A DNA stretch of 64,000 bases from Arenibacter arenosicollis (GTDB lineage: Bacteria > Bacteroidota > Bacteroidia > Flavobacteriales > Flavobacteriaceae). The notes under the pieces are model-generated. The model did not search any database and was not told the origin of the DNA. It saw only the letters and a list, made by a program, of their open reading frames with translations. The DNA lies in NCBI RefSeq assembly GCF_014397245.1, contig NZ_JACLHY010000002.1, forward strand, positions 248,001 to 312,000, read 5' to 3'. Of this stretch, positions 12,088-30,369 are shown piece by piece. The position numbers and the translations under genes were made by a program. The stretch's first letter is position 1, and the number at the start of each line of letters is the position of its first letter.

Positions 12088-14025
12088 TTAAAATAATAAA
12101 TTATAATTAAGCACAACAATCAAGGATCTTTCATTTTTATTGTGTAGCATGTCAAGACAAAAAACGCCATTCTTACATCCATTCAGAAGTTTATCCTCAC
12201 CATAACCAACAGTGTAGAGAATACTCGACGCTGACACCCCTTGCTGCAAGAGGTATTTTTTAATGGCATCCGATCTTTTTTGTGAAAGTATAAAATTAGA
12301 ACTCGCACCCCCTCTACTATCAGTATGTGATTCTATTCTTAGTTGCAACTGTGGAAATCTGCTCATAACATCAACCACCTTGTCCAGTTCTTGTGCTATT
12401 TCAAGCGTAATCTTGCTTTGACCCCTATCAAAGTAGAACTTTTTTAATTTTACGACCGTCTGTCCCTCTTGATCCTCAACCAAATCTTCAAGAGATTTAA
12501 TCCCCATATTAAAAGCCGTTTCCTGGATTTTATCGAGTTGATTGTCATTATAAGTCACCGAAAATATGGAGTATTTTTCTTTAGTTGCCTCAATAGTAAT
12601 GGTATTTTGGAATGGAATCTCAATATTATAATCACCATTCTCATTCGTAAACACCTCCTTAACAATCTTTCCTTCCTGATCAATGAGCCTTACTTGAACT
12701 TTGGACACACCATTATTGGAAGTAAGGTCAACCACTTTTCCTTTTAGGGCCAAGGTTTTTAGGCCAGGTTTTTCAGAAACATTAAAACCATATAGATCAT
12801 CGTTACCTCTACCACCTTCCCTATTGGACGAAAAATAGCCCAACAAGCCATTAGAACCATTATTTTTTATAATGAAGCCAAAGTCATCTTTAGGCGAATT
12901 AATCCCCTCCCCTAAGTTTACAGGAATACTAAAACTGTTATCTGCCTGTATGTTCGATCTGTAAATATCCATTCCTCCTAGCCCATAAAAAATATCGGAC
13001 GAAAAATATAGGCTATTTTCAAATATATAAGGAGCTATTTCATTACCAGGTGTATTAATTCTCGGCCCCAAATTTATGGGGGCGGACATAATTAATCCAT
13101 TGTTGGTGTACACGAAATAGATATCGGTACCCCCAAAACTATCGTGAAAATTAGCGGCAAAAAACAATCTTCCAGTAGCGGCTTCATAAAACGGATAATA
13201 GAACGAGGTATCCGGATCTCTTAATATAAACTCGAACGACCCCTTACCATTGCTCCGCCCTATTGCCAAGGCATTTTTCCCATTTTCACTAAATTGTAAA
13301 TCCTCTCCATCAGAATTGGAAAGAACATAGAATATATAACCGAGCTCCTCCGAATAATAAGGTGTAGCGCGATGAAATTTACTTTCGGATATACCTTTAA
13401 AAACCTGTGGACTTTTCACTTCGCCCTGCTGATCGATCTTGGACTCATAAACATTTAAATACGATTCCCCAGAGGGCCCATATATCTTTTTAGACCCATC
13501 TGGCCTACTACTTGAAAATAATAGCTTATCCTTATAAAAGGTTGGGGAAAAGTCTGCTTGGGGACTATTTCCATTTACATTAAATATCCTATATTTCAAA
13601 TCGTCATTGCTATTCGATGCGATCAACTCATAATTAAAATCTGCATTTTCGAGCAATTCAATGGAAAGATCATCCTTTTTGGTAGCGAGATACGCCCTCA
13701 CCTTTTCAATTTCAGAAGTTCTGGATAACGACTGTAACATTTTATTAAAATGATAGGTAGACATAGTAGTGTCTTTCTGATAAATATCCAAATAAATTTC
13801 AGTGGCCTTTTTATAGTTGCTGACTTTCATATAGGAATCCGCCAAGTTTAAATACTGTTTATTCGTAAGTTGACCCTCCCTTAATTCCTTCTGATATTCA
13901 ACAATAGCCTGACTATAGGAATACTCAAAAAATAGCACATCCCCTTTGGATTTTTTTTGCTGAGAAAAACCTAAGGACGATAAGATGATAAAAAATATAA
14001 CTATTACATTAAACCTCATGTTCAT
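12088..14025 (-). CDS. PorE-like TPR / beta-propeller / OmpA-domain protein
   Basis: A 645-residue periplasmic protein with a signal peptide (residues 1-21, ending GFSQ). TPR helices follow (about 25-110, FFEYSYSQAIVEYQKEL), then a WD40-like PD40 propeller (about 150-415; repeats such as DKLLFSSSRPDGSKKIYG and NSLYFSSDIFYGLGGMDIYR). Next come a carboxypeptidase-regulatory-like domain (about 425-515) and a C-terminal OmpA peptidoglycan-binding domain (FYFDRGQSKITLEIAQELD; RIESHTDSRG). This order matches PorE of the T9SS, which links the outer-membrane ring to peptidoglycan, except that no lipobox is seen. It is the last gene of a cluster with a PorP/SprF protein 7 bp upstream and an adhesin before that, so it is probably the anchor for export or display of that adhesin. 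Confidence 0.88.
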   Translation of the reverse strand: MNMRFNVIVIFFIILSSLGFSQQKKSKGDVLFFEYSYSQAIVEYQKELREGQLTNKQYLNLADSYMKVSNYKKATEIYLDIYQKDTTMSTYHFNKMLQSLSRTSEIEKVRAYLATKKDDLSIELLENADFNYELIASNSNDDLKYRIFNVNGNSPQADFSPTFYKDKLLFSSSRPDGSKKIYGPSGESYLNVYESKIDQQGEVKSPQVFKGISESKFHRATPYYSEELGYIFYVLSNSDGEDLQFSENGKNALAIGRSNGKGSFEFILRDPDTSFYYPFYEAATGRLFFAANFHDSFGGTDIYFVYTNNGLIMSAPINLGPRINTPGNEIAPYIFENSLYFSSDIFYGLGGMDIYRSNIQADNSFSIPVNLGEGINSPKDDFGFIIKNNGSNGLLGYFSSNREGGRGNDDLYGFNVSEKPGLKTLALKGKVVDLTSNNGVSKVQVRLIDQEGKIVKEVFTNENGDYNIEIPFQNTITIEATKEKYSIFSVTYNDNQLDKIQETAFNMGIKSLEDLVEDQEGQTVVKLKKFYFDRGQSKITLEIAQELDKVVDVMSRFPQLQLRIESHTDSRGGASSNFILSQKRSDAIKKYLLQQGVSASSILYTVGYGEDKLLNGCKNGVFCLDMLHNKNERSLIVVLNYNLLF

Positions 14026-14032
14026 ATATATT

Positions 14033-15025
14033 TTAGAAAAACCTTGGGGAATCTATTTGTTTAGGATTCCCTTTTTGATATCGATTATTTTCCTTTTTAA
14101 TTTTATTCCCTGCTTTTCCTAAATAAAACTTTAATATTACCTCATGTGAACCTTGACTATATTCCCCTAAACCATTGGTATTATAATCATAGGAATACCC
14201 CATAAATAGACTATTGGAAATTTGAAGTCCTGCCAAACCACTTATGGCATTGTCCAATCTATAAGAAGCCCCCAAAGTTACCAAGTCACTAATCAAAAAA
14301 TTGGTAGAAAGATTCAAGTTTAAAGGTGCACCATTTAAATAGTTCATTAAAAAGGCAGGTTTAAACTTTAGGCCTTCAGAAAGGTCAAAAACATAGCCCC
14401 CGATAAAATTAAACTGTACCTTATCTTCTATTATATTGGCTACTTCATCAGCATATATCCCTGAAGTTAAAAAATTGGGTACGGATAAGCCCACATACCA
14501 ATTTTCTTGGTACATAAACATACCTGCTCCTATAGTGGGATAAAATTTATTAAAGGTATCGGCATTATTGAGCAACGGTTCATTTGGATTTTCAAAATCG
14601 CCTTTGGTATAATCCACATCAAGTAATGAGCCACCTGCATCTACACCAAAAGACAACTTGGTATCGTCTGAAAGTTTTACCTGAAATGAATAAGCAAAAT
14701 CTATATAGGTTTGGGAAGTTGGCCCCAACTGATCACTGACCACATTAAAACCCAAACCATTTTTTTCATTGGCCAAAGGCAGATTTACCCCAAACCGTAA
14801 GGTTTTTGGCGCTCCTGGAATACCTGACCATTGAACACGGTACAGACCCGAAATATCTGGAGTCTCCACGGTACCCACATACGCTGGATTAAAACTGCCA
14901 ATATTGTACATATATTGGGTATACTGTGGTTCCTTCTGTCCGAAAAGCACAGTAATGGAAAATAACAGTAAGCTACAAAACAATATTGGATTTCTATACC
15001 CTATCCTGTATATTCTAAAATTCAT
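14033..15025 (-). CDS. PorP/SprF-family T9SS outer-membrane protein
   Basis: A beta-barrel protein of about 330 residues. The start at the internal Met (15025) gives a signal peptide ending VLFGQ directly before KEPQYTQYMYN, and leaves 8 bp to the adhesin stop; the upstream Met would overlap it. Family signatures are QYTQYMYNIGSFNPAYVGT, SGLYRVQWSGIPGAPKT and NGLGFNVVSDQLGPTSQ. In flavobacteria each PorP/SprF protein is commonly encoded beside a T9SS substrate with a type-B C-terminal domain and is thought to help export or retain that substrate. Here it directly follows the 1658-residue adhesin, so the two are very likely cognate. Confidence 0.95.
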   Translation of the reverse strand: MNFRIYRIGYRNPILFCSLLLFSITVLFGQKEPQYTQYMYNIGSFNPAYVGTVETPDISGLYRVQWSGIPGAPKTLRFGVNLPLANEKNGLGFNVVSDQLGPTSQTYIDFAYSFQVKLSDDTKLSFGVDAGGSLLDVDYTKGDFENPNEPLLNNADTFNKFYPTIGAGMFMYQENWYVGLSVPNFLTSGIYADEVANIIEDKVQFNFIGGYVFDLSEGLKFKPAFLMNYLNGAPLNLNLSTNFLISDLVTLGASYRLDNAISGLAGLQISNSLFMGYSYDYNTNGLGEYSQGSHEVILKFYLGKAGNKIKKENNRYQKGNPKQIDSPRFF

Positions 15026-15033
15026 AGTCTTTT

Positions 15034-18000
15034 TTATCTTATGATTTGGATCCAACCTTTTCGCACTTCCGTACCATCGCCAAGATCCAATATATAAAAG
15101 TAGGTTCCTTTTGGCAAATCGCCATTCTTACCCGTTCCCATCCAAGTATTATCATAACTACTGGCTTTAAAAACCTCATTACCGTAACGGTCATAGATTT
15201 CCAGGGTATTATTGGGATAATCTTCAATGCAGTTAATATATACTGCGTCGTTAAATCCGTCTCCGTTTGGTGATATCTGATTAAAGAGGAATCCGCATTC
15301 GGACGTGGAACGAGGGGTCACCGTTACGGTTGCTGTGGCCGTATTATTGGTAGCATTGGAATCTTCCGGAAAAGAGTCCACAATGGCGGCAACATTCTGG
15401 TAAGTGCCGATTTCAGGTACTCTAGCCGTAATGGTTAATGTATTCACCTCATCCGCCAAAATCTCATCCAATTGCCATACTCCAGCAATTTCATTGTATG
15501 TCCCGCTAGTAACCGTACTACTAATATACTCAAAACCAAGTGCAGGGCTTACAAGATCGTTAACCGCAACATTGGAGACCATGATTTGACTTAAATTGGT
15601 CAAGGTAACCGTAAAAGTAACCTCTCGTTCTACTAATACACTTTCTAAATCAACCACCTTCTCAATACCAAGATCGATCTGGCAGGCATCTGAGATATTA
15701 GGGATACAAGGGTTATTGTTCGCTGGATCCAATTGATCCACAATACCGTCATTGTCCGAATCCAAGATATTGGAATCCAATGCGTCTATTATACCATCAT
15801 CATCCGTGTCTATCGGATTACTTATATCCGGTCCCACTTCTACTCCATCGTCAATGCCATCAGCATCCGTATCCCGATTATTAGGGTCAAGGCCCAAAGC
15901 ATTTTCATCCCTATTAATAATACCGTCCCCATCGCTATCTACAGTACAAGTAGTTACAGCAATGGTAACATCAACGCTTTCATTTACACAAGGGGAAACA
16001 GCCGTATTAGTAGTAAATCTAAAAATATATTCACCATCTGCAGCCCCTTCAAAATCAACAACGTTATCCGACCCAATAGTGACAGTCCCTGGAGGGGTGC
16101 CCACTATAGTCCATTCCCCAGAAGTACCTCCGGTCCTAGTAGTATCCAAATCCAAAGTCGTGGGCCCACCTCCTGTTATGCTACATGCAGCATCATCAGT
16201 GGTTGTACCGGGCAAAACAGGGTCTGCCATAGTAACGGTAACCCCAATCCGTTCCGAAACACACTGATTGGCCGACGCTTCTACATAGTAAATTGTAGTG
16301 GCCGTGTTATTTGGTGTAGTGAAAGTGCTACCTTCACCAAGTGGCAGACTATCCGACGTTGAACTGTACCAAAACAAGCTACCTCCAGCGGATACCGTTG
16401 CACTAATGGTGGCCGTGCCTGGGCCACAAATGGTGGTTGGTGTGGTACTTAATATTTCAGGAGGTTCATTACGCACCAAAGTTACTTCTAATGGAGGACT
16501 GACACAGCCTGATCCCGAATTGAACAAAAATCCATAAAAAGTAGCTGCAAAATCTACCTCACTACTTCCTAATCTAGCTCCTGTAATAGAAAAATCACTG
16601 CTACTACTCCAAATTAATTCAAAACCTGAAGGAATGACAGTATCAGTATATGCATCCAAATCCTGTTTAAAATCTTCACAAAATATTGTAGGCGTTGTAT
16701 TTATTAAAGGGGCCTCTATACAATTGTCATTATCGGCGATGGTTCCAATACCTTGGGCCTTTCCAATTTGTGCAAAACCTGTGGCATTGTTCAGATTTAC
16801 AAAAAAGGTTTCTGTGCCCTCTGACACAGTATCCTCCAAAATATCAATTACAATAGTTTTTGTTTCTCCATTAAAACCTAAAAATGAAACGGAGCCTGAT
16901 TTGCTAACATAATCTGACCCGGCCGTGGCCGTATTATTGGCTGTTGAATAAGTAACATTAGTTCCAAAAAGGACTGCTCTATTTAATGTAACGGTAAAGG
17001 AAGCACTTCCATCACCTTCATTTACCAACACATCATCAATGGACACTCCAGCCCTATCCTCACTGGTTATAGAAACGGTGGCGTTGTTGGGGGAACCTAC
17101 GTTATATCCCGTACCAGATCTCAAGGTCACATTTACCGACTCAGCAGCTTCTACTTCGGTATCATTAATGGGAGTTACCGTAATAGTACTACTTTCTTGG
17201 GCATTGGGTATAGAAACTGTGCCCGAAGGTGCTATATAATCCGAATCGGGTGTAGCCGTGCCGCCAACTGTATAATTTACGACTATTGGATTCCCCGTTA
17301 TATTGGCTGTATTTAGACCTACTGTATAAGAACCCGCAGTCAATGGGCTTTCCGAAGCATCGGGAGTAGTGGCCGTTATGGTCGCAATATAGCTGTCATT
17401 ATCCTCAATGGTAACCGTCGCTGTATTGTTCGGTGCTACAGCTAATGTGTAGCCTGTCCCCGTGGCCAGTGTCAAAATCACCGTCTCAGGGCCCTCGACA
17501 AGTTCGTCGTCAACCGGGGCGACGGTGATTAACCCTGAACGTTGATTATTTGCTATGGATACACTGCCACTCAAAGTGCCATAGTCCGTAGTATTGGTCG
17601 CATTAGAACCGCCGGTCGCTATCGTATAGTTCACCACGATAGCGCTCCCGGTAGTGTTAATCGTCCCAAGATCTACTGTAAACTGACCAGTGGTGGTGCC
17701 TGCCTCCGTGGAAGTAGGATCGTTAGCAGTGATACTTGCAATATAGCTGTCATCATTGGTTATCGTACCCTGGGCTGTCGCCGGGGCCCCTATAGTATAG
17801 CCCGGACTCGGACCGCTGAGCGTTACCGTAAAAGTCTCGTTGGGCTCCACCGCAGTGTCACCGCTCACATTTATCGTTATAGCCGCCGTGGAGGAACCGA
17901 TTGCAAAGTTCGCCGTACCGCCGGGAAGCGTACCTCCTACGAAATCCGTACCGTTTGCAGGGTCTGCTCCGCTACCCGTCACTGTGAAGGACGCCGTGGC

Positions 18001-20010
18001 CGAGGCCGCGGTAGACCCAGTTCGGCTCGCCGTAAAATTAAATGCTGTTGTGCCGCTGTTCCCTTCTGAAAGGGTTACCCCACCGCCCATCGACATTACA
18101 TCGTTGTCGTCGTTGGTTATCGTCCCCAACGCCGTCGCCGTTCCAACAGCATAACCCGCTGTCGGAGCGCTGAGCGTTACCGAAAAAGTCTCGTTAGGCT
18201 CCACCGTGGTGTCACCGTTGACATTTATTGTAATTGTCGCCGTGGAGGAACCTATCGCAAAGTTTGCCGTACCACTGGGAAACGTACCTCCAACGAAATC
18301 AGCACCGTTGGCAGGGTCAGCTCCGCTGCCCGTCACCGTAAATGTAGCCGTGGCCGCGGCCGCTGTCGACCCCGTACGGTTAGCCGTAAAATTAAAGGTC
18401 GTGCTGCCAGCATTCCCCTCGGATTGCGTCACATTGCCCCCCATGGACATATCATCACTGTCGTCGTTGGTTATCGTCCCCAGCGCCGTCGCCGTACCTA
18501 TGGTATAGCCAGCACTGGGTCCGCTCAGCGTTACCGCAAAAGTCTCGTTGGGCTCAACCGTAGTGTCACCACTTACGTTTATCGCTATCGCCGCCGTGGA
18601 GGAACCGATCGCAAAGGTCGCCGTCCCAGTAGGGAACGAGCCCCCAAAGTCCGCAGCGTTAGCGGGGTTCGCACCAGTGCTCGTCACCGTAAAGGTAGTC
18701 GTCGCGGCTGCCGCGGTAGACCCTGTCCGGCTCGCCGTAAAATTAAAGGCTGTTGCGCCGGTGTTCCCCTCTGAAAGGGTCACACCACCACCTATCGACA
18801 TCACATCGTTGTCGTCGTTCAGTATTGTATAAGTTGTGGAGGTTATGGCTCCAAGGGATGCGTCCCCTGTAGCGCCGCTAAGACCTAGCACGATTGTTTC
18901 GTTTGGCTCCACGCTTGAATCGTTCGTTATGGCAAGGGAAGGTATAGGAATTTCCGTTGCCGCCGTACCATCATAAACGCCTACCGGGATGGCAACTACC
19001 TGGGGACTTGCGAAAGTAAAATCTACCCCACTGGTCGCCGTACCAGTGCCAGAATTGGTCACCGTTACGTTAGTGGTGGCTGTAACTGTGCCCGTCACAA
19101 AAAGAGTCGGAAGGTTGTCCCCAGTGTTCTCCGGACCAGATCCGGCTGCCGAAGAAAAGGATACGGCAACAATATCATCATTTATAATGGTATAGGTTGA
19201 TGACGTAGGGCTATTCGTTGCAACAATATCACCATTTTGTCCACCAAAACCTAAAATAATTGTTTCGTCGGTCTCTACTATGGCATCTGAAATTATTGAA
19301 AGGCCCGTAGAAACAGCAGTATTATTATACAATCCAGGTGGAATATTCACCGTAGTGCTTGGTAAAGAATAATCCGCTATAGTTGCCGTACCACCTAGGG
19401 TCAATACGATGCCCGAAGAACCACTTTCCACTCTTCCATTCACTATTAACGTTGGCAAATTATTCCCTACATCTTCCTGAGCCGAACTGTTGGCAGTTGA
19501 AAATTGAACGGATGCATCGTTATCCTGTATCGTTACGGTAGCTTCATCTTGCGTACCAATTGCGCCAAAATCTGTATTATCCAAAGTTACAACAACAGTT
19601 TCATCACCCTCTATAAAAAGGTCATCTACAATTGATGTTACGTTTATTACTGCCTCATTTGGTAACCCAGTGCCTCCTGGCAATGTTATTGAACCCGACA
19701 AGGCCAAATAATCCGTATTTCCAGTACCTGTCGCGGACCCTGAAACTGAGTATAGTACTGTAATATCTGACCCTATCGCCTCACTGTTGAAAACTCTAAA
19801 TTGTCCATTATTCAATCCTGCCTCAGAAGCATCAGGATCTGAAGCCTCTATAGCAATTATCTGCCCATTAATTCCTGAACTAAGCATTAGCATAGCCCCT
19901 AAAAGCAATAGACATTTAAGCCTAAAAGAAACCAAAAGAATGGAAAGTATATTATATTGGGAAATTATTTTCATAACCGGTTCTTTCATACTAAGATTTA
20001 ACCGGGGCAT
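15034..20010 (-). CDS. Giant Calx-beta repeat adhesin with T9SS type-B sorting domain
   Basis: A 1658-residue secreted surface protein. Translation may begin at any of three Mets; 19974 or 19989 fits best with the signal peptide (ending GINGQ). About eight or nine Calx-beta-type repeats (NDDxxxxx...VEPNETFxVTLSxPxxG) fill residues 50-1085. An Ig-like segment follows (ICGPGTATISATVSAGGSLFWYSS within a longer block), then thrombospondin type-3 Ca-binding repeats (DSDGDGIINRDEN; DTDADGIDDG), a DUF11 domain and the gliding-motility-associated C-terminal domain. That domain reads FNQISPNGDGFNDAVYINCIE ... GTYFYILDLGDG ... KGWIQIIR, and is the type-B T9SS export signal. The protein is probably a calcium-stiffened adhesin exported via SprA (50440-57621). 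The middle three repeats are nearly identical at DNA level. Confidence 0.93.
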   Translation of the reverse strand: MPRLNLSMKEPVMKIISQYNILSILLVSFRLKCLLLLGAMLMLSSGINGQIIAIEASDPDASEAGLNNGQFRVFNSEAIGSDITVLYSVSGSATGTGNTDYLALSGSITLPGGTGLPNEAVINVTSIVDDLFIEGDETVVVTLDNTDFGAIGTQDEATVTIQDNDASVQFSTANSSAQEDVGNNLPTLIVNGRVESGSSGIVLTLGGTATIADYSLPSTTVNIPPGLYNNTAVSTGLSIISDAIVETDETIILGFGGQNGDIVATNSPTSSTYTIINDDIVAVSFSSAAGSGPENTGDNLPTLFVTGTVTATTNVTVTNSGTGTATSGVDFTFASPQVVAIPVGVYDGTAATEIPIPSLAITNDSSVEPNETIVLGLSGATGDASLGAITSTTYTILNDDNDVMSIGGGVTLSEGNTGATAFNFTASRTGSTAAAATTTFTVTSTGANPANAADFGGSFPTGTATFAIGSSTAAIAINVSGDTTVEPNETFAVTLSGPSAGYTIGTATALGTITNDDSDDMSMGGNVTQSEGNAGSTTFNFTANRTGSTAAAATATFTVTGSGADPANGADFVGGTFPSGTANFAIGSSTATITINVNGDTTVEPNETFSVTLSAPTAGYAVGTATALGTITNDDNDVMSMGGGVTLSEGNSGTTAFNFTASRTGSTAASATASFTVTGSGADPANGTDFVGGTLPGGTANFAIGSSTAAITINVSGDTAVEPNETFTVTLSGPSPGYTIGAPATAQGTITNDDSYIASITANDPTSTEAGTTTGQFTVDLGTINTTGSAIVVNYTIATGGSNATNTTDYGTLSGSVSIANNQRSGLITVAPVDDELVEGPETVILTLATGTGYTLAVAPNNTATVTIEDNDSYIATITATTPDASESPLTAGSYTVGLNTANITGNPIVVNYTVGGTATPDSDYIAPSGTVSIPNAQESSTITVTPINDTEVEAAESVNVTLRSGTGYNVGSPNNATVSITSEDRAGVSIDDVLVNEGDGSASFTVTLNRAVLFGTNVTYSTANNTATAGSDYVSKSGSVSFLGFNGETKTIVIDILEDTVSEGTETFFVNLNNATGFAQIGKAQGIGTIADNDNCIEAPLINTTPTIFCEDFKQDLDAYTDTVIPSGFELIWSSSSDFSITGARLGSSEVDFAATFYGFLFNSGSGCVSPPLEVTLVRNEPPEILSTTPTTICGPGTATISATVSAGGSLFWYSSTSDSLPLGEGSTFTTPNNTATTIYYVEASANQCVSERIGVTVTMADPVLPGTTTDDAACSITGGGPTTLDLDTTRTGGTSGEWTIVGTPPGTVTIGSDNVVDFEGAADGEYIFRFTTNTAVSPCVNESVDVTIAVTTCTVDSDGDGIINRDENALGLDPNNRDTDADGIDDGVEVGPDISNPIDTDDDGIIDALDSNILDSDNDGIVDQLDPANNNPCIPNISDACQIDLGIEKVVDLESVLVEREVTFTVTLTNLSQIMVSNVAVNDLVSPALGFEYISSTVTSGTYNEIAGVWQLDEILADEVNTLTITARVPEIGTYQNVAAIVDSFPEDSNATNNTATATVTVTPRSTSECGFLFNQISPNGDGFNDAVYINCIEDYPNNTLEIYDRYGNEVFKASSYDNTWMGTGKNGDLPKGTYFYILDLGDGTEVRKGWIQIIR
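17755..18815 (-). repeat. Three tandem ~354-bp repeats encoding Calx-beta domains
   Basis: Three adjacent units of 117-119 residues each start NDDxDxMSxGGxVTxSEGN and end with GTIT. Matching DNA blocks recur at about 17832, 18188 and 18542. The units are visibly richer in G and C than the flanks. The high similarity points to recent expansion or gene conversion inside the adhesin, and such a tract is prone to copy-number change. Confidence 0.88.
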
Positions 20011-20269
20011 AGATAGACCATACCCCTACAAAATGGGCAATCAATATTAAGAAAAAATACCCCACAAGCCTAACAATACTGCTTAAATATGAATTTATCA
20101 GGTGAAAAGCAAACATAGAAAGATCAGCGTATTTAAAACATACCTTCTCCAAGGCATTTTGGTGATGATAACAGTTGTTAATTTTATTTATTTCCCTCTA
20201 AGAAACATGTCAGAGAATAGCTCATTAACCCAACTCTGCATACTTACACTACTAGCTGCTATTTGTCCC
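20011..20269. other. AT-rich spacer between the two adhesin genes
   Basis: About 260 bp without a convincing gene. It is long enough to hold a separate promoter for the larger adhesin, but no consensus TTG/TAnnTTTG pair was found, so the two genes may or may not be co-transcribed. Confidence 0.4.
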
Positions 20270-22858
20270 TTATCCCATTATCTGAATCCATCCTTTTTTT
20301 ACTTCGGTACCATCCCCCAAATCCAACATATAAAAATAGGTGCCTTTTGGCAAAATTCCATTTTTCCCCGTTCCATCCCAAGAATTATCATATCCCCGTG
20401 CTGCATACACCTTATTACCATAACGATCAAAGATTTCCAAAGATATATTGGAATATTCCTCAATACAATTTATCACAAGTTTATCATTGATTCCATCCCC
20501 ATTAGGCGATATCTGATTAAAAACAAACCCGCAGGCATCTACCGATCTAGCCCCCACGCGGACAGTGACCGATGCCACATTATTGGCTACATTGTCATCT
20601 TTGGGCAAAGAGGAAACTAGGGCAACCGTATTTTGGAACACACCTTCTTGCAGAACGCGAGCTTCAATTTGCAATGTGAATATTGCCTCCCCATCAACTT
20701 CATTAAGCAGCCAAACACCTCTTTGGGGGTCATAAAGACCACTATCCACTGTATGCGAAATATACTGAAAACCTAACGAGGCATCTATAAGTTCATTTAT
20801 TCTGACATCCACGGCATCCAACGTGGTTAGATTATATAAGATGATGGTGAAATTTATTTGATCTCCAACAATTGGGTTGGGGTTATCTACCTCGAGCTCC
20901 AATGCAAAATCTACCCCACATCCAGCCGTAGCCTTTGGTACACATGGTTCATCATTGGCAGGGTCCTTTTGGTCCACCACACCATCCTCATCAGCATCCA
21001 AAATGTTAGACTCAAGCGCATCTATAATTGAATCCCCATCCTCATCAAGGGCATTGTTTACATCTGAGCCAACTTCTACATCATCCCGTATACCGTCCCC
21101 GTCCGTATCCGGGTCGTTAACATCAGTTCCCAATACCATTTCTGCCGAATCCAAGAGACCGTCCTTATCCGAATCCAAAGTACATTCACTTACAGTAATA
21201 ACCACCTCAACACTAGCACTCGGACATACATTATTTGTGTTTGAGGTGGTAAATCGGAATACATAATCCCCCGATGAAGCGCCTAAAAAATTAACCACAT
21301 TCCCTGACCCTATTGATATTGCACTGGGAGGTGTCCCAACAATACTCCACCCACCTGTAGAACCACCGACCCTTGTATTGTCTAGATCTACGCTTGTAAC
21401 TCCATTTCCACCCACATTACAGGCCGAGGTATTGGTTGTAGTTCCCGGGCTGGATTCCTCGATTACTGTAACCCTAACCGGTAAGCGAGCTGAGGCACAA
21501 CCGTTTGCCGAAGCTTCCACGAAGTAATCCGTTGTTCGAGAATTAATAGGGGTTGTAAAGTTCCTTCCCTCCGCCAATACTTGAACGCTTGAAGCTGATG
21601 AATACCACAGTACACTTCCGCCCGCACTAACTGTAGCACTTAAATTGGCCCTTCCTGACCCACAAATAGTAGCAGGTTCCGTGCCTAATACCTGAGGAAT
21701 TTCGCTCTGTACCACATTAATTTCCAAAGGGGGGCTATTACAATTAGCTCCTTCATGATAAAAGTAACCATAATAGGATGCTGCATTATTCACAATAGAA
21801 CTTGTCAAGTGTGCACCTGTATTGCTAAAATCGCTACTGCTGCTCCATATCAAAACTGAACCCGAAGGTATGGGACTGTTATTATATTCATTTAAATTTT
21901 GACTGAATGCCTGACAGAACACAGTGGATATGTCAGGATTTTGCGCAGGTGCCGTTTCGCCAGCAGGACAACTAAAGTCATCATCCCTATTAATTACGCT
22001 TACCGTCTTATTGGGAACTCCCGCATAGTCATCATCACTTTCCTTTATTCCGATGGTAATGAGATAGGAGATATCACCATCCATTATTTCATCATCAACC
22101 GGTTCTATGTTTACCGTTTGCGGGGAACTCCACTTATCCTTCTTAAATTTTACTTCATCTTTGGAAACAACACCCTCGGTAGTATCACCCGAATTTATGA
22201 AAAGGGTAACATCCTCTTCTGGCCTGGCAGACAGCACTATGCTTAAGGACACAGAAGACCCATCTTCCCTTGTAGTTACTGTTTGCGGAGTCACGATAAA
22301 ATCGGCCTCATCATTATCCTCATTGGCCACTTGTACATCCGCTATTTCATCTTCCTTTAGGTCGTCATAATCGTCATCCTTAGCATCAATCTTATCTATA
22401 TAAATCCTATAATTAACCGTTCCATCAACAACATCATCATCCACACCAGTTACAGTAATGATTTGTGGAATATTCCAATCCTTGGAATCAAAGCTCACCT
22501 CTTCCTTATCGATCTTTCCCTCGGACTCATCACTACTTTTTAAATCAATTTTCACCTTCCCTTTCGGTTTGGAATTCAGGACAATTGTAAAAAATGCTGT
22601 CCTACCTGATTCATTGGTATTTCTACTAATGGCACCAACCGTAATTCCAGCTCTTTCCTGCAAGAGAAAAGATTCAATTTCTACAGACTCAAAATTATCA
22701 GTAAGCCCTTTTGTAGATTCGAATGCATATAAACCCTGTTTTAGGGCAAAAGATGAAATTTCAAAACTACCAATAGGAATCATAACCAATAAAACCAAAA
22801 GCAAGTGCTTCCAGCCTAATCGAAACATGGTAGTATAGGGATTTTCAAGTGTTTTCAT
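20270..22858 (-). CDS. Second adhesin, paralogous C-terminus, T9SS type-B sorting domain
   Basis: An 862-residue secreted protein with a signal-like N-terminus (WKHLLLVLLVMIPIGS). Two Calx-beta-like modules come first (KIDKEEVSFDSKDWNIPQII; VSKDEVKFKKDKWSSPQTV). From about residue 300 the protein is a clear paralogue of the C-terminal block of the larger adhesin: SSSSDFSNTGAHLTSS, TICGSGRANLSATVSAGGSV, thrombospondin type-3 repeats (DSDKDGLLDSAE), DUF11, and the type-B sorting domain FNQISPNGDGINDKLVINCIE ... KGWIQIMG. Export by the T9SS and surface display are expected. It lies just upstream of the larger adhesin, and the nearby PorP/SprF and PorE-like genes may serve both. Confidence 0.92.
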   Translation of the reverse strand: MKTLENPYTTMFRLGWKHLLLVLLVMIPIGSFEISSFALKQGLYAFESTKGLTDNFESVEIESFLLQERAGITVGAISRNTNESGRTAFFTIVLNSKPKGKVKIDLKSSDESEGKIDKEEVSFDSKDWNIPQIITVTGVDDDVVDGTVNYRIYIDKIDAKDDDYDDLKEDEIADVQVANEDNDEADFIVTPQTVTTREDGSSVSLSIVLSARPEEDVTLFINSGDTTEGVVSKDEVKFKKDKWSSPQTVNIEPVDDEIMDGDISYLITIGIKESDDDYAGVPNKTVSVINRDDDFSCPAGETAPAQNPDISTVFCQAFSQNLNEYNNSPIPSGSVLIWSSSSDFSNTGAHLTSSIVNNAASYYGYFYHEGANCNSPPLEINVVQSEIPQVLGTEPATICGSGRANLSATVSAGGSVLWYSSASSVQVLAEGRNFTTPINSRTTDYFVEASANGCASARLPVRVTVIEESSPGTTTNTSACNVGGNGVTSVDLDNTRVGGSTGGWSIVGTPPSAISIGSGNVVNFLGASSGDYVFRFTTSNTNNVCPSASVEVVITVSECTLDSDKDGLLDSAEMVLGTDVNDPDTDGDGIRDDVEVGSDVNNALDEDGDSIIDALESNILDADEDGVVDQKDPANDEPCVPKATAGCGVDFALELEVDNPNPIVGDQINFTIILYNLTTLDAVDVRINELIDASLGFQYISHTVDSGLYDPQRGVWLLNEVDGEAIFTLQIEARVLQEGVFQNTVALVSSLPKDDNVANNVASVTVRVGARSVDACGFVFNQISPNGDGINDKLVINCIEEYSNISLEIFDRYGNKVYAARGYDNSWDGTGKNGILPKGTYFYMLDLGDGTEVKKGWIQIMG

Positions 22859-29376: not shown

Positions 29377-30369
29377 TCAATAATTAACTGCCGGACATTT
29401 ACAATCGTATCTTTTCTCGGATTGACCAAAGTCGTACCCCAGGGTAATTTGATGAAACCCGCCATTATCAAATCGAACATCGCCCATTTGATAGGAATAA
29501 TTATAGGACACTAGAAAATTTCTGTAATTTACACCAACTATTGGGGTAATAAGCTGCAAACGTTGTTCCCCAAAATCTGTGGCGGTCTGATATTGCGCAC
29601 CATCAAAACTTCTTCTGTAAGAAACGCCGCCCCAAACCGTTCCAAAATCCACACTCTTGTAGACCTTTGCATTAATATCAATAGCCTTTTCCTGAGTAAA
29701 CTCCGTAAATTGAAATAATACCGAAGGTTCTACCTGCCATTCGCTCCTTCCAAATACATAACCAGTGGATACCAAATATTTTCTTAAGTTGTTGGACTCG
29801 ATTGCCGAATATAAATCCCTACCTCGCCCCATTAAATTGTGAATAGCGGCATGGGCATAGAACTCCATAAAATTATAGGACATCCCCAAATCCATATTAA
29901 AATAGCTAACACTGTTCCTGGAACCGGTTATAATTGGATCTGGAATAACCGAAACAAACTCGGACTCATCCAAATTACTTTGTTGAATTCCCGCACTTAG
30001 TCCAAATGAAAGTTGATTAAGACTCCTATAATCCCCACCAAGACGTAGATGATGTGCGTAAGTGAGCTTTAACCCCGTTTGGGAATGGTAACCGTTGGCA
30101 TCATTAAATACGGTTGCCCCAAAGCCACTACTTTCACCAACCCTTACATGGGCATTTAAAGTTTGTAAATTGGGCGCTTCGTCAACATTAAACCATTGCT
30201 TTCTAATAGTTGCCCTAATTTTCCCTCCTTCACCAATTCCTGCCATTGATGGGTATACCAAATAGTAATTATCCGCCAAATAATCAAAATAAACTGGGAC
30301 ACCTTCTTGCGCCATGGACTGGAAGCCAATCGCAAAAAACGAAAGTAGGATCAATAAATGGTGTTTCAT
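29377..30369 (-). CDS. PorP/SprF-family T9SS outer-membrane protein
   Basis: A 330-residue beta-barrel protein with signal peptide ending SMAQ (about residue 21). Family features are EGVPVYFDYLADNYYLVYPSMAGIG near the N-terminus, IRATIRKQWFNVDEAPNLQ, and a closing barrel strand GGFHQITLGYDFGQ before a short Cys-containing tail (DCKCPAVNY). Unlike the copy at 14033, it has no adhesin beside it; its neighbours are the vWA gene and, divergently, nfu. A role in export or retention of an unlinked T9SS substrate is inferred. A consensus -7 box (TATATTTG) lies at 30411-30418, about 42 bp upstream. Confidence 0.9.
   Translation of the reverse strand: MKHHLLILLSFFAIGFQSMAQEGVPVYFDYLADNYYLVYPSMAGIGEGGKIRATIRKQWFNVDEAPNLQTLNAHVRVGESSGFGATVFNDANGYHSQTGLKLTYAHHLRLGGDYRSLNQLSFGLSAGIQQSNLDESEFVSVIPDPIITGSRNSVSYFNMDLGMSYNFMEFYAHAAIHNLMGRGRDLYSAIESNNLRKYLVSTGYVFGRSEWQVEPSVLFQFTEFTQEKAIDINAKVYKSVDFGTVWGGVSYRRSFDGAQYQTATDFGEQRLQLITPIVGVNYRNFLVSYNYSYQMGDVRFDNGGFHQITLGYDFGQSEKRYDCKCPAVNY

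Follow-up and report, generated by a model that had tools for sequence, protein, structure and literature searches.

A probable wall-anchored type B T9SS adhesin cassette in Arenibacter arenosicollis, and a possible destination code in the C-tails of PorP/SprF shuttles

The window analysed here is a 64,000-nucleotide stretch of an Arenibacter arenosicollis contig. On its minus strand four open frames follow one another in the order adhesin 1, adhesin 2, PorP/SprF and PorE-like, and their Pfam and NCBIfam domains agree with this order, which an earlier note on the DNA had read from the letters. The features to which the argument refers are the following.

20270..22858, minus strand: type B T9SS adhesin 1, 862 aa, with Ig_7, DUF11 and a CHU_C/TIGR04131 C-terminal domain
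15034..20010, minus strand: type B T9SS adhesin 2, 1658 aa, with Calx-beta repeats, Ig_7, DUF11 and CHU_C/TIGR04131
14033..15025, minus strand: PorP/SprF shuttle barrel, ATG start, C-terminus KQIDSPRFF
14033..14047, minus strand: the terminal PRFF codons and stop of the PorP/SprF gene, ending a tail of about 27 residues past the last barrel strand
12088..14025, minus strand: PorE-like periplasmic protein, 645 aa, with a probably TPR-like N-terminal part, PD40 propeller, CarboxypepD_reg and OmpA
29377..30369, minus strand: orphan PorP/SprF shuttle of the contrasting track type, outside the cassette, Cys-x-Cys tail YDCKCPAVNY

Judged by their spacing, adhesin 2, PorP/SprF and the PorE-like gene stand in tight operon order, with 8 nt from the adhesin 2 stop to the PorP ATG and 7 nt from the PorP stop to the ATG of the PorE-like gene; adhesin 1 sits 259 nt upstream of adhesin 2. 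The ATG at 15025 is a more likely start for PorP than the listed TTG at 15055, because it lies those 8 nt past the adhesin 2 stop. A sigma-70 promoter scan was uninformative (37 sites against 32.6 expected).

The earlier assignment of type B cargo domains to both adhesins is confirmed, as each carries the sorting domain TIGR04131 above its curated cut-off (55.5 and 59.5 bits; cut-off 35). Pfam and NCBIfam models further place Ig_7, DUF11 and CHU_C in both proteins and six stretches of Calx-beta in adhesin 2, and the N-termini of both read as visibly hydrophobic. Their last 550 residues align without a gap at 55% identity, so the two look like a duplication with differing outer parts, and this shared C-terminal portion makes it plausible that the single PorP shuttle serves both. 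The locus reaches far enough upstream in 11 genomes, the source genome included, and 4 of these have a second adhesin at the position of adhesin 1.

The shuttle is a clear member of its family (PF11751, 283 bits, cut-off 22.3; TIGR03519, 272.4 bits, cut-off 90.55). Its only cysteine lies near the N-terminus, and it lacks the Cys-x-Cys C-tail that characterizes the mobile shuttles of the SprF type, which the orphan at 29377-30369 possesses. The position of the last strand before the window PorP tail was read off the sequence; a structure search with PorP and SprF-like queries returned no solved relative at an E value of 0.2 or better. In a tree of shuttles the orphan groups with the Cys-x-Cys shuttles of genomes G053, G049, G085 and G081, and 7 of 18 relatives also have a Cys-x-Cys shuttle near the cassette within the retrieved sequence, which is truncated in several cases.

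For the PorE-like protein, the full order of TPR, propeller, CRD and OmpA claimed earlier stands for its last three members, PD40, CarboxypepD_reg and OmpA, which pass their Pfam cut-offs in that order, but the TPR is only weakly visible: a single TPR-like ARM model matches the window protein (E 0.078), and generic TPR models give weak matches in up to 4 of 14 aligned PorE-like proteins (best E 0.0028). An N-terminal TPR part is thus likely. A structure prediction of the protein alone reached a mean pLDDT of 36 and was set aside; the weakly predicted secondary structure, helices between residues 27 and 127 and then mostly strands, only fits the family. The OmpA domain has the triad Asp-x7-Asn-x6-Arg (D569, N577, R584), which is invariant in all 14 aligned proteins (the window protein and 13 of its 18 orthologues) and has the same spacing as Asp576, Asn584 and Arg591, the residues with which Porphyromonas gingivalis PorE contacts peptidoglycan (PMC7192894). 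By sequence, then, the peptidoglycan-binding triad is kept. Against the NCBIfam PorE model NF052230 the protein scores about 209 bits (208.7-209.7), far below the cut-off of 600 bits, which no protein of the source genome passes.

The earlier note had also remarked on a missing lipobox. Read by eye, the window protein indeed has none at its N-terminus, but this does not distinguish it. A lipobox pattern run on 83 PorE-like proteins, paralogues included, from the source genome and 24 related genomes flagged 15, each with a cysteine early in the signal peptide and the hydrophobic run behind it, and none was convincing by eye; the six PorE-like proteins of Flavobacterium johnsoniae CI04 gave the same picture. 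We therefore rejected the missing lipobox as a mark that sets the window protein apart from its relatives.

Arrangements of this kind have been described. In P. gingivalis a PorE-PorP-PG1035 complex was co-purified, and wall anchoring through complexes of PorP with PorE-like proteins, as a static anchor, was proposed for F. johnsoniae in the same work (PMC9143113); the proposal was repeated in 2025 for Fjoh_3952-3951-3950 (PMC12618676). The suggestion that a cargo-specific anchor would be a new component of type B secretion has thus been pre-empted by these papers. With PG1035-PorP-PorE the window shares type B cargo, a PorP barrel and a peptidoglycan-binding PorE, here recognized from sequence alone. 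P. gingivalis, however, has a single PorP and a single type B cargo, whereas the source genome has several paralogous cassettes, and PorE of P. gingivalis is a lipoprotein, unlike the PorE-like proteins here, which lack a lipobox. The closer likeness is to Fjoh_3952-3951-3950 and its kin, which have the same order of cargo, PorP and PorE-like genes; the PorE-linked operons of F. johnsoniae differ from the window, where two cargo genes go with one shuttle. Taken together, the locus is probably a type B T9SS cassette for anchoring adhesins to the cell wall, and as such it is ordinary, one more copy of the published arrangement. By analogy with experiments on relatives (PMC9143113, PMC12618676, PMC12635249), both adhesins would leave through the T9SS translocon, their C-terminal domains would stay bound to the PorP barrel, and the PorE-like protein would hold PorP from the periplasm while gripping peptidoglycan. 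The adhesins would be static because PorP is held in this way. A review lists PorE as required for export (PMC10202324), but PorE may not be needed for that step, since in P. gingivalis PorP and PG1035 still made a complex when PorE was absent (PMC9143113).

The cassette appears to be inherited as a unit. An orthologue search with the window PorE-like protein covered 30 relatives (17 in the genus, one in the family and 12 more distant). Orthologues at 54-88% identity are present in all 18 genomes of genus and family; the 12 more distant genomes have weaker matches only. Each of the 18 adjoins PorP, and upstream there is a type B adhesin frame; some of these loci are truncated by the end of a contig. 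Among 90 PorP-PorE pairs, three without a cargo domain were dropped, leaving 87 cassettes from 29 genomes, 23 of which contribute more than one. Distances between the three proteins correlate strongly (PorP-PorE 0.933, PorP-cargo domain 0.844, PorE-cargo domain 0.863), and 500 within-genome shuffles never exceeded 0.456, 0.306 and 0.353, respectively. PorP, the PorE-like protein and the cargo domain are, on these sequence distances, inherited together, and this joint inheritance and the 18 orthologues beside their own PorP bear out the dedicated display unit that the earlier note had suggested. Its description as self-contained is loose, in that export still needs the T9SS of the genome. Natural fusions lend support to a tether to the wall: PorP is joined to OmpA, with thrombospondin type 3 repeats, in three proteins of one genome (L261:4033-5754, L262:3943-5745 and L272:3083-5029) and to SPOR in a different one (L299). 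PorP barrels with very long extensions also occur (L232, L239, L245 and L391; 970-1527 aa, L391 running off its locus).

The part of the analysis that merits attention is the end of the shuttle. The discovery set comprised 78 shuttles from the source genome and its relatives, collected for the most part from the surroundings of PorE genes. PorE is the next gene downstream of 59 PRFF-class shuttles but not of two further ones, and none of the 17 shuttles with other tails has PorE next; nine of these 17 end in Cys-x-Cys, and the remaining eight are all from the source genome. Whatever their tail, 57 of the 59 PorE-followed shuttles end in PR[FY]F. The association was then examined with a pattern fixed beforehand (PR, F or Y, an optional F or Y, end) in a draw of 60 genomes from the phylum, the source genome included, 25 of which had matches. 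In 13 other genomes 99 shuttles were targeted and 95 recovered, the PorP profile missing L250, L256, L279 and L290; the source genome's 15 matches, the fragment G065:C16 and 17 matches below 32 bits had been dropped before this count. L290 itself has an interrupted PorP frame with a PorE-like frame downstream of it. More distant genomes gave 17 weak PorP matches; one frame each was read for 11 of them, several apparently wrongly picked, and none yielded a usable tail.

Among the 95 test shuttles, 17 of whose loci extend no more than some 1500 bases to each side of the match, 24 were PRFF-class with PorE next, six PRFF-class without it, eight other with it and 57 other without it (Fisher 1.6e-10). 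The corresponding counts for the five genomes of the same family were 16, 1, 0 and 17. The sole miss there, L197, has a PorE frame that overlaps the shuttle frame; with this case moved by eye afterwards, PorE follows 17 of 17 PRFF-class shuttles and none of the 17 others. Beyond the family the association weakens (8, 5, 8 and 40; p 0.0027), with PorE next to 8 of 13 PRFF-class shuttles and 8 of 48 others. A stricter end, PR[FY]F, chosen post hoc, marks 25 of the 33 PorE-followed test shuttles in comparison with 1 of the other 62. None of the nine Cys-x-Cys shuttles in the test set has PorE next to it.

PRFF shuttles without PorE next are L074_9 in the source genome, L264, L178_6, whose operon nevertheless ends in PorE, and four with a Cys-Pro-Arg-Phe end, which make up four of the five such shuttles outside the family. 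Deep-branching shuttles such as L205, L257, L258 and L274 end in Cys-Pro-x-Phe, and these four have no PorE next; such an end may be a variant of the track tail with only one cysteine. Three near-alike tail-less shuttles of the source genome (L077:6540-7427, L079:2626-3573 and L080:7515-8462) each lie beside a type B adhesin, without PorE.

The tails can be compared with phenotypes in F. johnsoniae, where six porP-like genes adjoin porE-like genes (PMC9143113) and five PorE-linked type B operons with cognate shuttles are reported (PMC12618676). Fjoh_3952, beside the PorE-like Fjoh_3950, is static, while SprB and in part the C-terminal domain of Fjoh_1123 (shuttle Fjoh_1677) move with the gliding machinery, most Fjoh_1123 foci being static (PMC12618676). 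Strain CI04, which we reached through its PorV, has 10 PorP matches. PRFF terminates six of these shuttles, each of which has a PorE gene after it. Two more have a Cys-x-Cys end and no PorE: one lies beside a type B gene and has an SprF-type tail, and the other is an orphan that, judging from its position and its lack of partners, seems to correspond to Fjoh_1677. The last two matches are a frame that runs off its locus and a fragment. This split appears to fit the published mobility phenotypes in the main. The motif PRFF is absent from the available part of PMC12618676, and we did not find the rule pointed out in the searchable literature, a scope that leaves aside preprints and most subscription journals. 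The shuttle-tail rule is therefore new as far as the searched literature goes.

What the tail does may be read from its shape. In 83 PRFF-class tails with a placeable last strand, 6-28 residues separate that strand from the C-terminus, and related shuttles without PorE can end at the last strand itself. Since the end is near-constant while this distance varies, PRFF appears to be a C-terminal binding motif carried by a tether outside the barrel. Part of the uniformity of the 85 tails in our position profile is by construction, because the pattern itself selected them.

The tail could instead be a mark of ancestry only, one old PorP clade having inherited both the tail and the PorE neighbour without any contact between them. 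In a tree of 114 shuttles with the last 25 residues removed (shuttles above 480 aa, 7 of the 95, and source-genome shuttles of at least 420 aa were left out), most PorE-linked shuttles, and most PRFF shuttles, do fall within one clade of 59 rows, and a starred-branch test found only four independent pairs and was not significant. Within that clade, however, the counts in the order used for the test set are 40, 3, 3 and 13 (Fisher 6e-8), and a model of dependent evolution, run with a home-made script, fits better than an independent one (p 0.011). Five groups inside the clade, which together comprise 13 shuttles, lack both PRFF and an adjoining PorE gene downstream, although many forks of the tree are weakly supported: L230/L236, with Cys-x-Cys instead; L202 with four of the source genome's own shuttles; L231/L237; L294/L295/L297; and L286. 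The near-constant strict end in 57 of 59 shuttles, set at a varying distance from the strand, also speaks for a binding motif. A link between PRFF and PorE beyond ancestry is thus moderately supported by these sequence comparisons, and we consider ancestry as the sole cause rather unlikely.

Outer-membrane barrel signals typically have aromatic residues at their end, and PRFF might likewise serve insertion of the barrel and have no contact with PorE. The last strand (e.g. HEIFLRYEF, read by eye), however, lies 6-28 residues before the end. Furthermore, related tail-less shuttles end at the strand (KNTNEFLLRFLF) and Cys-x-Cys shuttles lack PRFF; PorP-family barrels thus do without it, and an insertion signal is quite improbable.

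It is also conceivable that the cassette serves gliding, its adhesins being carried on the moving track. The SprF Cys-x-Cys tail bonds to GldK of that track (PMC12635249), and the source-genome GldK has two cysteines besides the lipidated one, so a partner for Cys-x-Cys shuttles exists in this genome. A GldJ-like gene, read by eye, is present as well, and one Cys-x-Cys shuttle has a giant type B frame next to it, a pair whose position and size recall SprF/SprB. The window resembles SprB-SprF in pairing a type B adhesin with a dedicated PorP-family shuttle (PMC12635249). SprF, however, lacks a PorE neighbour and is bonded to GldK through its Cys-x-Cys tail, whereas the PorP of the window ends in PRFF, has no cysteine in its tail and is followed by a PorE-like gene; moreover, the F. 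johnsoniae cargo genes whose products were shown to be mobile are not in operons with PorE (PMC9143113, PMC12618676). A gliding role for the cassette is very improbable.

The source genome (5.4 Mb, 77 contigs) has 15 PorP-family matches and 20 type B domain matches, 19 of them over the cut-off. Besides the window gene it contains three other full-length PorE-like genes and one without OmpA, all five close to a PorP gene. By the reasoning of the earlier note the window gene would be the core PorE if the genome had no other, and others are present; no lipoprotein PorE, the kind of second copy for which the note proposed a search, was found among them. The longer C1-type PorE-like gene, grouped by length (843-1044 aa), occurs in all 19 genomes; in 16 of them the retrieved stretch contains no PorP, and for this reason the gene is the better candidate for the core PorE. 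In the source genome this gene (L072:11135-13783) has a SPOR domain, which Pfam did not find in L144. That the window gene is itself the core T9SS PorE, placed beside the adhesins incidentally, is scarcely credible despite its conservation in all 18 genomes of genus and family, given the C1-type gene and the lowest PorE-model score of the four full-length paralogues (208.7 bits; the others 349.8, 319.5 and 295.6).

The PorE-like gene without OmpA (L073:11646-15121, C4 of the source genome) lies just upstream of L073_12, a PorP-SPOR fusion without PRFF and one of the eight source-genome shuttles of the discovery set that have neither PRFF nor Cys-x-Cys. Because its neighbour lacks OmpA while the shuttle is fused to SPOR, L073_12 may itself carry the wall-binding domain. 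Two source-genome shuttles have a SPOR match, one of them marginal.

Returning to wall anchoring as the preferred reading of the cassette, we propose that the C-tail of a shuttle acts as a destination code deciding whether display is static or mobile. In PorP, the PRFF-ended tail past the last strand is predicted to make the contact by docking on the TPR/propeller part, the N-terminal half, of the PorE-like protein; in shuttles of the SprF type the Cys-x-Cys tail would instead be bonded to GldK of the moving track. Both N-terminal domains of PorE have been named as possible contacts for PorP, and the available text of PMC9143113 names no site on PorP. Such a code, docking included, is a proposal that we hold evenly poised between right and wrong. 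One pair nested in the PRFF clade (L230/L236) has Cys-x-Cys tails and no PorE, and there is about an even chance that the code switches with gene context. If it does, exchanging tails should immobilize a mobile adhesin, and might also work in the opposite direction.

If the tail code is true, it would provide a rule readable from sequence, at least in the Flavobacteriaceae, for telling adhesins fixed to the wall from those that ride the track. It would also offer a four-residue handle on the hold between PorE and PorP, which the available text of the paper describing the complex leaves open (PMC9143113).
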